From: Planctomycetota bacterium | Lineage (GTDB): Bacteria > Planctomycetota > MHYJ01 > JACQXL01 > JACQZI01 | DNA: 64,000 nucleotides | Direction: 5' to 3' | Assembly: GCA_016207825.1 (NCBI GenBank) | Contig: JACQZI010000038.1 | Coordinates: 30,949-94,948 of the forward strand | Shown: piece after piece, positions 741-64,000 of the stretch | Numbering within the stretch: position 1 is the first letter of the stretch | Layout of the letters: every line of letters starts with the position of its first letter | The notes under the pieces: model-generated | Seen by the model: the letters and a program-made list of their open reading frames with translations, nothing else | What the model was told of the DNA's origin: nothing | The model's database searches: none | Program-made: the position numbers and the translations under genes

Positions 741-851
741 ACTTCTCCCAGTCCCTCCAATAGGCAGTCATCATTGAAGGCATTCTCAAATTCGCTATGT
801 TCGAAGTTTGCGGCTCCTTGATGTCAGCGTGATATCACCGCGTGACTAAAT

Positions 852-1137
852 TTCGTTACAGAGGGGGGAGCATCCGTTAGAAGGGTGGACTATAACCGTT
901 AGAGGCAGGGAGAGTAACCGTTAGAAGCGGGGAGTATCACCGTTAGAGGCGGGGGATTCTTCCACTTAAGATAGGGAGTATATCCGTTGGAGGGGTGGAC
1001 TACAACCGTTAGAGGATCGGGTAATAACCGTTATAGGCGGGGAGTATTACCGTTAGAAACGGGGGATTCTTCCATTTAAGATAGGGAGTATATCCGTTAG
1101 AGACGGGGAGAGGTAAGGTTAGAGGCGGGGGGAGGTA
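852..1137. repeat. 22-bp tandem array 1 (13 degenerate units)
   Basis: Thirteen consecutive units of exactly 22 bp, most starting CCGTTAGAGG and carrying a G-rich centre (GCGGGGAGTA). Unit boundaries fall at 852, 874, 896, 918 and so on to 1116 with no indel. Units 874-983 and 984-1093 form a 110-bp higher-order repeat of five units: the atypical fifth member, starting CCACTTAAG or CCATTTAAG, recurs exactly five units apart. Because 22 is not a multiple of 3 and stops are present, the array is not coding. Confidence 0.9.
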
Positions 1138-1151
1138 GTCCCCCCTCTTTA

Positions 1152-20510: not shown

Positions 20511-20590
20511 TACCCCCCTCTACCCATCCCCCCTATCCCCCCTTCCCTACCCCAATTCGGGGGGAGTAGAAAAACTGGAATAGGGGGTGC
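20511..20590. repeat. C-rich/G-rich tract upstream of array 2
   Basis: A run of C5-C6 blocks separated by TAC or TAT (CCCCCCTCTACCCATCCCCCC and on) ends with GGGGGGAGTAG and TAGGGGGTGCG. Such spacing can form hairpins, G-quadruplexes or i-motifs. Similar tracts occur beside the other 22-bp arrays. Outside this tract and the array, the 20337-21297 gap shows no gene. Confidence 0.6.
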
Positions 20591-20667
20591 GACGGAAAGT
20601 GAATTTAGTCAAAATCGAAATGTCAAGGGGAGTTTTAGAAAAGTGTGGCGCATAACACAGGAAAATC

Positions 20668-21214
20668 AAGCCTTAGCAGGCATGGGAAGTACCTCGGACG
20701 TTCCTGAAATCCATTTTTCTTTAATGGGGTATACCGGCTCGCACCATGGAGCATAGTAGTTATTAAGATGGGGTCGGGTAGCTTTTAGAATGGAGTCTGG
20801 TAGCTCTTACCTATACGTATTATAGCTTTTAGGATGGGGTCAAGTAGCTTTTACCTATATGTATTATAGCCTTTAGGATGGGGTCAGGTAGCCTTTACCT
20901 ATACGTATTATAGCCTTTAGGATGGGGTCAAGTAGCTTTTACCTATATGTAGTATAGCTTTTAGAGTGGGGTCAGGTAGCTTTTATAATGGAGTCTGGTA
21001 GCCTTTAGGGAGGAGTATACCCACCCCCTCCGGCTGAAACCGCATTTAATTGAGATATAAATCGATATATTGCTTTTCAGGGGAATTGGGTATTGGCTGA
21101 TTTCCGGAAAAGTGCCCCTTAGATATCAGGAAAATCACCTAATTCTGCGTAATATTAATCTGGAGTCCCCGAATCCCATAGGGATGAGTGGGAAGCCTTA
21201 GCAGGCGTGGGAAG
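20668..21214. repeat. Direct repeats flanking array 2
   Basis: The 22-base sequence beginning AAGCCTTAGCAGGC occurs at 20668-20689 and again at 21193-21214 with one mismatch. The two copies bracket the tandem array in the same orientation, as if marking the edges of a unit. Confidence 0.65.
20757..21020. repeat. 22-bp tandem array 2 (12 units, alternating A/B)
   Basis: Twelve units of exactly 22 bp start with TAG(C/T)TTT or TAGCCTTT at 20757, 20779, 20801 and so on to 20999. Two unit types alternate over most of the array: A continues AGGATGGGGTCAGG and B continues ACCTATACGTATTA, giving a 44-bp higher-order repeat. There is no indel across 264 bp. Confidence 0.92.
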
Positions 21215-21633: not shown

Positions 21634-22425
21634 CTATTTTTTATGATTCCCTGCGCAGTAAGCCAAAACCAGCCCTTCAAGCGTTAAATCGGGCATGATT
21701 TCATCTATCCCCTTAAAAGCACCCTTGATAAGTGCGGCATCACCGCCCGTGGCGATAACATAAGGTTTCTTTCCCAACTCCACGGTAATTCTTTCCACCA
21801 GATATTTCGTCATGCCCATCCACCCCAAATAAATTCCTGAATTCATGGCTTCTTCGGTATTCTTCCCGATAGCCTTTTTCGCCCTCTTCGGCTTAATCAA
21901 CGGGAGAAGCGCGCAATCATTGTGCAACGCGCGCGCCATAGTCGCCAGCCCCGCCGCTATCGCTCCTCCCAGGAACTCTCCCCTGGCGGAAACGACATCA
22001 AATGTCACGGCTGTCCCGAAATCTATTACCAATGTGAGCTTCTTTTTCTTCTGATACGCCGCAAAGGCGTTGAGTAATCTATCTAAACCAACTTTCCCCG
22101 GCTCTTTTACCCGAACCGGCATGGGCACCTTAAAATCCCTGCCTGCCTTCAGGAGTTTCAGGCCGAATGACTTCTTCACCCATTGCGCCAGATACTTTTC
22201 CGCCTTTGGGTTAGTGGAGACCATCAAAGCCCGGTCAATCTTCGCGCGGGACAAAGCTTTAAGATGCTTGTTGCGTGATATCTTACCGGCATCCTTGGTA
22301 GAAATAATTCCCCTGCCGACCATTTTATTGTCTTTAAATACCGCGATATGGCAGTTGGTGTTGCCGAGACTGATGGTTAAGACTGTTAGGCCGTTAGGAC
22401 CGTTAGTTCTGTTAGGGTTGTTCAT
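21634..22425 (-). CDS. coaX: Type III pantothenate kinase
   Basis: CoaX phosphorylates pantothenate in the first step of coenzyme A synthesis. The ASKHA-fold motifs are present: phosphate-1 loop ISLGNTNCHIAVF (usually DIGNT; the Asp is Ser here), VGLDRLLNAFAAY, the catalytic segment VIDFGTAVTFDVVSARGEFLGGAIAAGL and the adenosine loop YVIATGGDAALI. The first 17 residues (MNNPNRTNGPNGLTVLT) are encoded by 10-11 bp degenerate repeats (CTGTTAGG, CCGTTAGG) that continue into the upstream gap, so the original N-terminus was overwritten. The missing first Asp in the phosphate loop may be part of that change and could affect activity. Confidence 0.9.
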   Translation of the reverse strand: MNNPNRTNGPNGLTVLTISLGNTNCHIAVFKDNKMVGRGIISTKDAGKISRNKHLKALSRAKIDRALMVSTNPKAEKYLAQWVKKSFGLKLLKAGRDFKVPMPVRVKEPGKVGLDRLLNAFAAYQKKKKLTLVIDFGTAVTFDVVSARGEFLGGAIAAGLATMARALHNDCALLPLIKPKRAKKAIGKNTEEAMNSGIYLGWMGMTKYLVERITVELGKKPYVIATGGDAALIKGAFKGIDEIMPDLTLEGLVLAYCAGNHKK

Positions 22426-22490
22426 AATGTTAAGACTGTTAATACAGTTAATCAGTTAAGACCGTTTATACCGTTAGTCAGCTAAGATAA
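22377..22490. repeat. 10-11 bp degenerate repeats, coaX side of the four-helix-bundle gene
   Basis: Units such as GACTGTTAGG, CCGTTAGGA, CAGTTAATCA and ACCGTTAGTC follow one another for about 110 bp, covering the coaX start and the space up to the four-helix-bundle stop. Confidence 0.7.
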
Positions 22491-22871
22491 TTAAGATTTT
22501 TCTGCTTTTTGGTATTTTCTTAGATATCTTAAAAATCCGTCTATTAATTGCCTGCCTTTAACACATTCATCATATATCTGGTTAAATTCTTTATCGGTTA
22601 TATATTTCTGGTCTAAGGCAACGTATAAACAACTCTGGACTTCCGAAGCCGAACGCCTTGAATAAGTAAGGAAACGGATAAACTCCCTGTTTGACTGGCT
22701 GGCAAAACCTTCGGCGATATTGGTCATGATTGAAATTGCGGCGCCGGTAATCTGGTCGCGCAACCTGTAATCAGAAGAAAACCTATCTCTCTTGGCTATA
22801 GCATAAACATTTTTCACAACAAGCCTTGCCTGTTTCCAGCACTCTAAATCTTCAAAACTGGTTATTTTCAT
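22491..22871 (-). CDS. S23/four-helix-bundle protein (TIGR02436 type)
   Basis: This 126-residue protein belongs to the family first seen as ORFs within 23S rRNA intervening sequences. The pattern is FEDLECWKQARLVVKNVYAI, LRDQITGAAISIMTNIAEGF, NREFIRFLTYSRRSASEVQSCLYVALDQKYI and a last helix. The family forms pentamers of four-helix bundles; related Avd proteins bind RNA in diversity-generating retroelements. The start is ATG 22871 (MKITSFEDLECW): the open frame runs 50 codons further upstream, but only through repeat DNA. The gene is framed on both sides by 10-11 bp repeats and interrupts a same-strand run of ABC exporter genes and coaX, so it looks inserted. Confidence 0.88.
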   Translation of the reverse strand: MKITSFEDLECWKQARLVVKNVYAIAKRDRFSSDYRLRDQITGAAISIMTNIAEGFASQSNREFIRFLTYSRRSASEVQSCLYVALDQKYITDKEFNQIYDECVKGRQLIDGFLRYLRKYQKAEKS

Positions 22872-23016
22872 AGCGTTCGTTGTTACTGTTATTACTGTTA
22901 AGACCGTTAATTCAGTTAAAGCCGTTAAAACTGTTAACGGTTCAAACCGCCCCAACTGTCTCAACTGACTTAACGGAACCAACCGTCCCAACGGGCTCAA
23001 CGGTCTAAACGGTCTA
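22872..23016. repeat. 10-11 bp degenerate repeats, exporter side of the four-helix-bundle gene
   Basis: Units (TTACTGTTA, AGACCGTTAA, AGCCGTTAAA) switch orientation at CTGTTAACGGTT near 22933 into complementary units (CTTAACGGAA, CTCAACGGTCTAAA). The right end supplies the stop codon of the ABC permease gene. Confidence 0.7.
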
Positions 23017-23982
23017 AACAAGAATATCTTTTTTCTTCAGCACAATGAGCGACGGAACGGAGAATAAAATAATATAGCCTATCGGAACAAGGGCGCTTTT
23101 TGCCACCATGGGCAGCCACTTTTCGAGATATAACGAGGAGTTTTTAATCTCTCCCGTTCCAAATCCGAGGAGCTGGTCAAGCACGGAAAACGCCCAGCTG
23201 TCTCCGCTATACGCCTTGGCGAGAGAGGAAAGCTGGTCCAGGTAAAAGACGTCGTAATAGGAAAAGAAATATGTGCCGGCATTATCGAATATGGAAATGA
23301 TGAAGTAATCCATGATGAGATAAATCAGAATCGCCGCGGCAATCGCCACGCCTACGTTTTCTACCAGCGTGGAAATCAAAAGCCCCAGGAAGATGGTCGT
23401 GATAAAGGGCAGGATGACCAGCAAAAATGTGTATATCGTGTAGCGAACCATGAGCGCCAGCTCGCCCTGTTCAAACGGGACATCGCCATAGGTGGGGTTG
23501 GTCACCTTGCTGAATCCGTAAACGATATCAACCAAAACAAAGCTCAATAATTCTATTAAGAGGACTATCATCATCGCGACGATGATAAGGGCAAATGCCT
23601 TGGAGATAAAGAATTCACTGCGCCTGACCGGCCGGATAAGCATCATCCTGATGGTGCCGGTGGTCATCTCACTGGAGATAGAAAGGCTGGCGCATATCAG
23701 GATAAAAATCGTCGCCAGTCCGAACCCGTTCATGCAGGCACGCGTTAAGGGGCCGAAGCCTCCGTCCGGGCGTGACGCCTCGACGGGCTTGGCGGTCTCT
23801 TCCAGATTCTCTACTTCACCGCCGCCACTTGAGGTTTTGCCGGACGGCGCGTTCCAAGAGACTTCCCAGAAGATAGAGAAAACCACCACCAGTATGATTA
23901 AGAAAAGGGCAATGTAAAATATCCGCTGGCGCATCAGCTTGCCCAGTTCCACTCCGGTCAGGTCTATGATTCGTTTGAACAT
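23014..23982 (-). CDS. ABC-2 type transporter permease
   Basis: This is the membrane subunit of an ABC exporter. The first helix (IFYIALFLIILVVVFSIFW) is followed by a soluble loop and then about five further membrane segments (GFGLATIFILICASLSISSE, ALIIVAMMIVLLIELLSFVL, ILPFITTIFLGLLISTLVEN, GVAIAAAILIYLIMDYFIIS). SISSEMTTGTIRMMLIRPVRRSEFFISKA is the signature of ABC-2 permeases of the bacitracin or gliding-motility type. The substrate is unknown. The ATPase gene lies 123 bp upstream. The extreme C-terminus and stop codon are in the repeat nest of the four-helix-bundle gene. Confidence 0.88.
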   Translation of the reverse strand: MFKRIIDLTGVELGKLMRQRIFYIALFLIILVVVFSIFWEVSWNAPSGKTSSGGGEVENLEETAKPVEASRPDGGFGPLTRACMNGFGLATIFILICASLSISSEMTTGTIRMMLIRPVRRSEFFISKAFALIIVAMMIVLLIELLSFVLVDIVYGFSKVTNPTYGDVPFEQGELALMVRYTIYTFLLVILPFITTIFLGLLISTLVENVGVAIAAAILIYLIMDYFIISIFDNAGTYFFSYYDVFYLDQLSSLAKAYSGDSWAFSVLDQLLGFGTGEIKNSSLYLEKWLPMVAKSALVPIGYIILFSVPSLIVLKKKDILV

Positions 23983-32444: not shown

Positions 32445-32610
32445 CCCCTCCCTACCATACCCCCACCCCCCTATAATTGCTTGGCCGGGACGTGGAAAAG
32501 ACTTGATTTAGGCGCCAAAAGCATTTAATTAGCCAAACTTATGGAATTTAGGATACTATAGGAAAAGCCGGAGATACCCCCTCCCTACCATACCCCCACC
32601 CCCCTATAAT
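32445..32610. repeat. Exact 33-bp C-rich direct repeat pair
   Basis: The same 33 bases (CCCCTCCCTACCATACCCCC then ACCCCCCTATAAT) occur at 32445-32477 and 32578-32610, 133 bp apart. They lie upstream of array 3. A related block (GTAGGGGGTATCCTACCCCC) is at about 32754-32773. The rest of 32384-32802 shows no gene. Confidence 0.85.
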
Positions 32611-32802
32611 CATTTCAAGCGGCACTCCCAATCAGTTGAAATAGGGAGTCCAAGGGGAAAAGCCATAAAACTCAAGAAAAACTATTGCCAAAGGCACAAT
32701 TCCTATCGCCTTATATATTAAGAAGTTAGGAACATTCCTACCCCGCTCTAGATGTAGGGGGTATCCTACCCCCTACCACCCTGTGGGATACCGGCACGTA
32801 GC

Positions 32803-33066
32803 TGAAATCTACCCTTCCACGTGCCTGAATCCACCCGTCCACGTGCTTGAATCCACCCTCCCGCGTGCTTGAATCCACCCGTCCACGCGCCTGAATCTAC
32901 CCTCCCATACGCTTGAATCTACCCTCCCGTGCGCTTAAATCTACCCATCCACGCACTTGAATCTACCCTTCCACACGCTTGAATCTACCCATCTACGTGC
33001 TTGAATCTACCCATCCACACGTTTAAATCCAACCTTCAACATGCTTAAATCTACCCGTAGCCACAC
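32803..33066. repeat. 22-bp tandem array 3 (12 units)
   Basis: Twelve units of exactly 22 bp begin TTGAATCTACCC, CTGAATCCACCC or TTAAATCTACCC at 32803, 32825, 32847 and so on to 33045, ending in forms of CCACGTGC or CCACACGC. There is no indel across 264 bp. On the minus strand the units carry a G-rich core (GGATGGGTAGATT), similar in style to arrays 1 and 2. The gap 33067-33367 has no convincing gene; 33098-33124 shares CGAAATG-C-AGGGG-A-TTTT with 20616-20642 near array 2. Confidence 0.92.
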
Positions 33067-33367
33067 TTAAAACAATGATACTATAATAATGTTAGCCCGA
33101 AATGCCAGGGGGAATTTTGAGGAAATCAAGGATTACAAATGGGAGAAAATATCGGGGCGGGAGTTCGGGATTAAGCCTTTAACCCCCTGAAACATTGAGG
33201 AATAGAAACGATACCGCTCACGGGTAGCCCGATGAAATCGGGAGGTTATAACACTACGCTGCTGAGCAAAGCGAAGTCTTTTAGGGCTGCTATCAATCAT
33301 TTAAACTATTGAACATTTAAGCACGGTCTTATCGGCGCTGGCACCGGGGGGTGTTAGCGGGAGGAAT

Positions 33368-34402
33368 TTAATCGTCATTATCAGGTGTTATTACAGAAAA
33401 ATGTATATCGCTCGAATTGTTCTGCAAGGAGCTTTCCCCTTGTTCTTTTAATAGATTTTCTTCTGTTTTAATAATATTTTGAGCTTTTGTTTTATCTGCT
33501 TCAATAATATTCTGTAGTATCCAATTAGTAATTTTTATCTTGAATTCTTTTAACCCATTGTAAGGAATATGATCTAACCCTTTAATATCAGTAACCTCTG
33601 ATGCATCCTCCCTCCGCAGAAGACATACTTTCATCCCATAGCCATGCATTAAACCATATTCATAGCTAACGCTATTGCTTCCTGTAGAAATGTCAGTAAC
33701 GCCATATTTACAAATTCTTATCTGCTTGCACACTTTACAAAGCAAGTGATTGGAAGTAAGTTTACCTTTAGCGATAACTGGATTTAATCCAACTTCTTTC
33801 ACTAAATCCATCAGTGTTTTCTCGCAATTATCATAATTTGAATAAGGAATATCTAAAAATATATTAGACGCAGAAAAACTATCTGCTATATCTTGGATAC
33901 AATCACATTGTGTCTTTGCTTCTGGCCCACAGGAATGATTACTGGTAATATCAGTCTTTGCTTGTTTAAATAGAAAATCTTTTGTCTTATCATAGTTTCT
34001 CTGAAGCAAGTTTCTCGCGTAATAAAATTCATCATTAAAGCTATCTCTCACTTTAGTTTTTCCCTCAATGAATAAAGCAAGCCTATCGCATTCTCTTTTA
34101 GTCCATCTTATTTCATCAGTAAAATTACCACCAGAATAACCATGTCTTGATAGATTCAATGTTTGCAATGGAGATAGCTCTAATTTCCCCTTTATTTCCT
34201 TTATAAAAAGATCGGGTTGGGATATATTCTTACTAATAAATATTTCCAAATCTCTTTTCCAGTCCTCGAAAGCATTTATATGCCCAAAAAAGACACTTAA
34301 GTCTTGGTTTTTATTTACCACTAAACAATCTATAGGACTAACAAGTTTCGCAATTAACCCAGAACCTTGCCAGACTAAATTAGTAAATTCGTTGTTATTC
34401 AT
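33368..34402 (-). CDS. AT-rich protein with C-terminal TIR-like/nucleotide-binding domain
   Basis: The 344 residues fall into an N-terminal helical part and, from about residue 178, a Rossmann-like domain: NIFLDIPYSNYDNCEKTLMD L, then CKQIRICKYGVTDISTGSNS VSYEYGLMHGYGMKVCLLRR E, then IKGLDHIPYNGL. The 'hC..s...hhDIs..N..V.YE.GlmhG' pattern is that of TIR-like or nucleoside 2-deoxyribosyltransferase-like domains, where the Glu of YEYG is the catalytic candidate. Such domains often serve as NAD-degrading or nucleotide-cleaving effectors in antiviral defence. The gene is visibly more AT-rich than its neighbours and stands alone beside a repeat island, as expected for a recent arrival. The C-terminal 50 residues are polar and probably disordered. 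Function is inferred, not shown. Confidence 0.6.
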   Translation of the reverse strand: MNNNEFTNLVWQGSGLIAKLVSPIDCLVVNKNQDLSVFFGHINAFEDWKRDLEIFISKNISQPDLFIKEIKGKLELSPLQTLNLSRHGYSGGNFTDEIRWTKRECDRLALFIEGKTKVRDSFNDEFYYARNLLQRNYDKTKDFLFKQAKTDITSNHSCGPEAKTQCDCIQDIADSFSASNIFLDIPYSNYDNCEKTLMDLVKEVGLNPVIAKGKLTSNHLLCKVCKQIRICKYGVTDISTGSNSVSYEYGLMHGYGMKVCLLRREDASEVTDIKGLDHIPYNGLKEFKIKITNWILQNIIEADKTKAQNIIKTEENLLKEQGESSLQNNSSDIHFSVITPDNDD

Positions 34403-63622: not shown

Positions 63623-64000
63623 AACCTAATCCCAAAAACTCCATTTTATTCGTTCCCAATAACTCAATATATTGCGTTTGGCAGTCTAATACAGTGCATA
63701 CTATATCTATAATACTAAGGACTTAGGCCCTAAATCCAATAAAGGCATGTTTGATTTTCGGCAGGTGGTAGGGGGGTACGGTAGGGTCCAATACCCCCTT
63801 TGTAACAATCTAATACACCGAAGCAAATATCCTAATGGGTTTAACAGAGTAAATCCAATGGGGGGTAGGGTAGGGGGTAATGGTCTAAAAGACTGGGAAT
63901 AATACCCGAAAGTAAGTATCCTAATCCCCCAAAGCAAATAAACTAATACTCTGAAGCAAACATCCTAATGGTCTTGACATGCCGAAACCAATAGGGGGTA
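63623..64000. repeat. 22-bp tandem array 4, running off the window
   Basis: Degenerate 22-bp units with a TCCTAAT or ACCAAT start are clearest at 63785, 63807, 63829, 63851, then (after a 1-bp shift) 63874, 63896, 63918, 63940, 63962 and 63984. Earlier, blurred units reach back to about 63623. G-rich tracts (GGGGGGTAGGGTAGGGGG at 63860-63877; GGTAGGGGGGTACGGTAGGG) interrupt it. The array continues past the window end. Confidence 0.75.

Follow-up and report, generated by a model that had tools for sequence, protein, structure and literature searches.

The closest described counterpart of the repeats reported here is BrickBuilt, a MITE of Porphyromonas gingivalis in which 23-nt tandem repeats stand between distinct end segments at dispersed intergenic sites (approximately 20 copies per genome), and which forms a single sequence family, has inverted ends of the IS5 type and is not accompanied by a linked gene (PMC4596501). 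The arrays that we found in a genome of Candidatus Brocadiia share with BrickBuilt the intergenic, dispersed placement, between a leader and a tail, of tandem repeats whose length is close to two helical turns, but differ from it in that 36 families with unrelated units keep one period, that their ends carry G/C hairpins and share no terminal inverted repeats from a resident IS family, and that genes for helix-turn-helix (HTH) proteins, for a protein family (family A) and for ATPases are linked to them. Plasmid iterons provide a second point of comparison: those of R6K pi measure 22 bp and are direct repeats beside the gene of a two-winged-helix Rep protein. Like them, the arrays consist of direct 22-bp repeats (two turns) beside a gene for a DNA-binding protein (at eleven HTH loci, and also in the related genome G007); unlike them, they occur by the dozen on a chromosome, with neither plasmid nor Rep initiator, and the protein resembles the DNA-binding regions of IS630 transposases. 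A plasmid iteron-Rep system was rejected, as Pfam returned no Rep family and the linked proteins are IS630-type HTH proteins, family A and AAA_14/DUF4143 ATPases. In eukaryotes, CENP-B on alpha satellite (one protein, one box) likewise joins a transposase-derived paired HTH domain devoid of catalytic function to tandem satellite DNA, whereas each array family here appears to have its own protein, whose binding we infer. REP/REPIN elements with RAYT (the REPs being moved in trans) resemble the arrays in their GTAG/G-rich hairpins at intergenic sites, but the unit here is a 22-bp direct repeat and not a palindrome. A RAYT-driven REP system was rejected, since this 97.6% complete genome has no intact RAYT and its sole PF01797 match is a truncated RAYT-like Y1 transposase ORF of 83 aa (C32:46571-46822, minus strand; contig:position). 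Finally, TIGR-Tas loci combine alternating repeats and 9-nt spacers (36-nt tigRNA) with a Nop-domain protein (PMC12045711). Both systems have 5-15 units, a locus-specific repeat, a hairpin at the array end and an adjacent gene, but we saw here neither 9-nt spacers nor a Nop-domain protein. The open-licence literature yielded nothing relevant on tandem repeats in planctomycetes or Brocadiia, on solo HTH proteins with arrays or on combinations of IS630 and minisatellites.

The window (i.e. the whole 64,000-nt stretch analysed, part of contig C38) holds three clear arrays and one weak one. Array 1 (852-1137, plus strand) comprises 13 units of 22 bp in register with a 110-bp higher-order repeat; its self-match at lag 22 is 0.60, compared with 0.37 for the best of 2000 shuffles, and the five-unit blocks that the earlier note had taken for copies of each other (874-983 and 984-1093, 110 bp each) are indeed 86% identical. 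Its left end (851-870, plus strand, TTTCGTTACAGAGGGGGGAG) resembles its own repeat unit, its two ends form a short inverted repeat (TACAGAGGGGGGA / TAAAGAGGGGGGA), and a G6/C6 hairpin marks the right end (1127-1145, plus strand, GGGGGGAGGTAGTCCCCCC). Array 2 (20757-21020, plus strand; 12 units, 44/88-bp higher-order repeat) is preceded by a T-rich run followed by AATGGGGTATACC (20714-20737, plus strand), terminates in a hairpin (21009-21031, plus strand, GGAGGAGTATACCCACCCCCTCC) and has full-length copies at C23:174704-174967 (93%) and C10:92740-93003 (85%). Array 3 is inverted (minus strand) and, having been located at 32803-33066, is better placed three bases further on (32806-33069); it comprises 12 units (self-match 0.79) and a terminal hairpin (32754-32776, minus strand, GTAGGGGGTATCCTACCCCCTAC), and its family, which has three A-linked members, includes the arrays at C10:146950 and C27:7040, each located 92 bp upstream of a family A gene. 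The fourth island (63623-64000, no strand assigned) is a degraded period-22 remnant or a cut-off array at the contig end: its self-match of 0.37 barely exceeds the shuffle maximum of 0.34, the caller finds just 63900-63969 (3.2 units), and hairpin-like G/C blocks occupy 63771-63798. Arrays 1, 2 and 3 are solo arrays, with no linked HTH or family A gene; array 1, proposed earlier as a founding member, belongs to a small family of such solo arrays (family-mate at C17:97385), and that role has to be dropped.

Other repeats were recorded in the same window. Upstream of array 2 (approximately 20514-20689) lies another dispersed repeat with CTGGAATAGGGGGTGCGACGG, found at a dozen or more genomic sites elsewhere, and 22376-23019 is occupied by tandem repeats of 9 bp and 18 bp, with GTTAAGACTGTTAATACT and related sequences, which do not resemble the 22-bp arrays.

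As the genome (2,885,524 bases in 42 contigs) was scanned over 2,885,241 of its bases, the count of four islands proved far too low. Period-22 windows number approximately 79 (a lag count of 99, less a constant 20 attributed to masked N runs); the same subtraction leaves about 74 at lag 44, 17 at lag 21, 13 at lag 42 and 0-5 at the other lags between 10 and 60. The TRF output agrees, with 117 rows at period 22 (44, 66, 88 and 110 being harmonics), 30 at period 21 (7 and 6 at its harmonics 42 and 63) and at most 8 at every other period. A total of 72 arrays (median 11.6 units) were called and fell by sequence into 36 families of 1-6 arrays each. A coding origin was rejected, since 22 is not divisible by 3 and 65 of the 72 arrays lie outside ORFs of at least 100 aa. 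The earlier idea that islands share the period while each keeps its own consensus stands insofar as the consensus sequences differ, but they are not all unrelated, given the close copies of arrays 1-3 elsewhere and a weak common motif: the units of the different families share a modest motif, whose IC of 5.52 compares with 4.98 in the block-shuffle null (5.46 at its maximum), and the common G-rich core once suggested is only a tendency. Within-unit conservation showed no clear two-block footprint, harmonics 1 and 3 being slightly raised instead.

Neutral replication slippage yielding unrelated minisatellites would account for the higher-order repeats of 44, 66 and 110 bp, in which blocks have duplicated locally. 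It would have to produce a single period over 36 families and several genera, together with whole-array copies and gene linkage, and we consider it very improbable; slippage alone is contradicted by the period spectrum and the copies. The comparison proposed in the earlier note as decisive for or against slippage (periods across the genome, arrays in relatives) came out in favour of the arrays, as other periods are not equally common and relatives do carry arrays.

Many arrays are whole-array copies at unrelated sites, with 67-96% identity (the family at C7:202214, C17:75621, C36:71 and C14:67007 reaches 93-98% in pairwise comparison); homology among the copies ends 20-60 bp beyond the array, and the flanks further out are unrelated. 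Arrays have therefore been dispersed, and not generated locally each time. Many of these elements carry a G/C hairpin at one end (type GGGGnTAnnTACCCC) and a T-rich run followed by AGGGG at the other. Genome-wide, 29 of 48 G5+/C5+ hairpins stand no more than 150 bp from a called array; among the others, several adjoin sequence resembling a decayed array. Furthermore, with families aligned and judged by eye, the repeat unit is similar to the left end of its own element. Inverted repeats in the flanks are weak and differ between arrays, the ends being alike only in their G/C hairpin architecture.

Copies at unrelated sites, intergenic placement, the end structures and the short inverted repeat of array 1 are also what would be expected of ordinary MITE-type parasites that carry a minisatellite inside them, for which BrickBuilt in Porphyromonas is the precedent. 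Under such an explanation some transposase would recognise the ends and the hairpin, the 22-bp repeats would be its subterminal sites or simply products of slippage, and the neighbouring genes would be chance hosts. We regard this as unlikely, though deserving of attention: it leaves unexplained both the array consistently found upstream of solo HTH genes (in G007 as well) and the constancy of one period across unrelated unit sequences, and neither a transposase with matching ends nor a partner IS was found, nor any clean target-site duplication or paralogous empty site among the arrays checked. (A lead from the empty-site search, which placed array 2 in a dispersed repeat, failed on alignment.) In DeMMO3_52, a genome of the same genus, the gene beside array 3 directly adjoins the next gene, the two being separated here by 2.4 kb that include array 3; the array 3 site is thus absent there, but within this larger 2.4-kb difference. 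The same 2.4 kb contain two identical 32-bp C-rich repeats (CCCTCCCTACCATACCCCCACCCCCCTATAAT; 32446-32477 and 32579-32610) beside array 3. The gene adjoining array 3 at 33368-34402 (minus strand, 344 aa) matches no family significantly, and a comparison with 40 genomes yielded almost no relatives of it.

The linkage of arrays to genes came to light in a search for repeated genes, in which family A (40 members in the genome, approximately 265 aa) was spotted beside arrays. A period-22 array lies upstream of 18 of 39 family A genes and of 47 of 2094 other genes (Fisher p = 1.6e-18, a value that overstates independence because some A loci are recent duplicates), and downstream of 1 of 39. Since this linkage had first been noticed and then tested, the test was rerun unsupervised over all protein clusters, considering clusters of related proteins in which at least two members had a period-22 array no more than 900 bp upstream. 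The only clusters enriched were those of family A (15/31 and 3/3), of a solo HTH family termed family C (6/7 and 2/2) and of the AAA_14/DUF4143 ATPases termed family D (3/6). Ten array families are represented among the A-linked arrays. A six-frame search brought the array-linked HTH genes or remnants to eleven, all with the array upstream (in one case touching the gene start) and falling in eleven array families, one each. The larger families typically unite one HTH or A locus with solo arrays; in total, 48 of the 72 arrays have no HTH or A gene nearby, and for 25 of the 36 families this genome holds no HTH. The orientation of the motif relative to the HTH gene is variable (6/11), and HTH similarity correlates weakly with unit similarity (r = 0.42, p = 0.037, n = 9; Mantel, unadjusted). 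The three ATPase genes (C5:168002-, C32:23963- and C3:29825-) have their arrays 300-650 bp upstream, and a gene at C11:92006+ appears to join the C-terminal motif of family A to an AAA_14/DUF4143 ATPase.

Family C proteins have two HTH domains (Pfam HTH_23 and HTH_32/33) and stop after the second (145-169 aa), with no catalytic domain. Identity as IS630 transposases was ruled out for want of a DDE catalytic domain after the paired HTH; tblastn matches on plasmids are mostly IS630 transposases, and no match was found in viral contigs. The AlphaFold model (pLDDT 81.5, pTM 0.53) has as its top Foldseek matches the SETMAR/Hsmar1 DNA-binding domain, TnsB, the Pax5/6 paired domain, Mos1 and CENP-B, none of them below E = 0.001. 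Family C thus resembles the part of an IS630 (Tc1/mariner-type) transposase that binds DNA, minus the catalytic domain. Paired domains contact approximately 20 bp over two successive major grooves, which would fit a 22-bp unit, and the small HTH protein encoded behind the array probably binds the repeated unit. Family A had no match in phages and no Pfam, PHROG or NCBIfam family above the cut-off; its AlphaFold model (pLDDT 89) gave no clear PDB match by Foldseek, and a second structural comparison (VIA) reached a best Z of 5.9, within the chance range.

The presence of CENP-B among the Foldseek matches, together with the many dispersed arrays, their fixed spacing and the transposase-derived paired HTH, also speaks for a role in chromosome organisation, in which the arrays would be centromere-like or nucleoid anchors and the HTH proteins adaptors, as with CENP-B on satellite DNA. 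We deem this improbable, as the families are small (1-6 arrays) and HTH-specific and no partner such as ParA or ParM is linked, the linked ATPases being AAA_14/DUF4143. Still less probable in our judgement is an RNA-based system, in which the array would be transcribed as repeats before a protein gene (cf. type III toxin-antitoxin or TIGR-Tas). The order array, hairpin, gene at master loci, the approximately 12 units and a unit that is constant within a locus and different between loci (as in TIGR arrays) speak for it. HTH proteins, however, usually bind DNA; the arrays show no RNA structure (fold z-scores from -1.8 to +2.1, scattered around zero) and the window has no Rfam match, on which grounds a structured RNA was rejected; and no variable spacers separate the repeats (a spacer-like block occurs in 1 of 72 arrays), which led us to reject a CRISPR or TIGR array as well. 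The want of a Pfam domain above the cut-off and of a clear fold match in family A also counts against such a system. A type III toxin-antitoxin locus would carry a toxin of ToxN/AbiQ fold behind its transcribed repeat. TasH scored Z of about 4 against the family A model, among unrelated rows, and Pfam gave no Nop match.

In relatives, arrays were sought as GTA occurring five times at 22-bp spacing, a pattern matched by position that picks up only part of the arrays. Among 294 Planctomycetota genomes, 4 contained it, and these belong to one order (56 matches in this genome, 322 in G003, 124 in G007 and 4 in G005); a 23-bp control pattern gave none in these four genomes and matched in only two unrelated genomes among the 294. 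Family A is present in five genomes, all of the order, and full-length solo HTH genes in this genome, G003 and G007 (with partial matches elsewhere), and the genomes with period-22 arrays also carry HTH and A genes. In G007, which represents a second genus, both full-length HTH genes (C75:18447+ and C75:20789+) have a period-22 array upstream (at 332 and 251 bp, respectively), the two arrays differing in their units, and a shorter HTH gene is preceded by one at a distance of 87 bp. In G003, none of the approximately 14 arrays listed stood beside a known HTH or A gene, with a pattern that sees a subset of arrays and lists of A and HTH genes that are partial. Taken together, these observations describe a real, order-restricted and gene-linked set of dispersed period-22 arrays.

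We propose that dedicated HTH proteins bind the arrays, whose units would be sites of two helical turns, and that solo copies have spread in the manner of MITEs, an explanation whose chances we see as evenly balanced. The ancestral locus would have consisted of a left end with a T-rich stretch and AGGGG, a run of about 12 22-bp units, a G/C hairpin and a gene; at the master loci this gene encodes a solo paired HTH protein of approximately 145-170 aa. Each protein would use its two HTHs to contact a single 22-bp unit from the same face of the helix, with neighbouring molecules side by side, and such side-by-side binding would hold the period at two turns, leaving the sequence free to change with the protein. 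An array before its own HTH gene would serve as a multi-site operator for self-regulation, and arrays before family A and AAA-ATPase genes would be operators for those genes. Copies of array and hairpin that lack the gene (such as arrays 1-3) would have dispersed into intergenic DNA, behaving as small non-autonomous elements, for which we infer a mobilising enzyme. As a mechanism, binding-site arrays that travel are plausible. The protein on phased sites envisaged in the earlier note agrees with the exact genome-wide spacing, the occurrence in other genera and the gene for a dedicated DNA-binding protein, but is not the whole account: since arrays 1-3 are copied elsewhere and a weak motif runs across families, part of the explanation lies in a history of mobility or copying.

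More tentatively, and with the balance in our view somewhat against it, the arrays may constitute a bacterial satellite system not described before, in which many period-locked array families would each have their own transposase-derived paired-HTH protein (one molecule per 22-bp unit), array and protein would diverge together to give new specificities within one genome, and a parallel 21-bp class would be tied to another gene family. If this were true, bacteria would carry tandem satellite families constant in spacing and not in sequence, with matching small DNA-binding proteins seemingly derived from IS630-type transposases, offering natural protein/site pairs for the study of changes in DNA specificity and a counterpart in bacteria of CENP-B with its satellite DNA; families A and B (the latter belonging to the 21-bp class) would be two further gene sets without known function.

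The separate 21-bp class comprises arrays at C5:24227-24548, C5:1092-1277, C10:33241-33388, C23:18203-18415, C33:14976-15138 and C8:292546-292708, many of them with palindromic units, directly upstream of family B genes. Family B (8 members, approximately 230 aa) has no Pfam match, and a 21-bp array lies directly upstream of 7 of its 8 genes (at threshold), whereas among 2094 other genes 12 have one (Fisher p = 1e-14).
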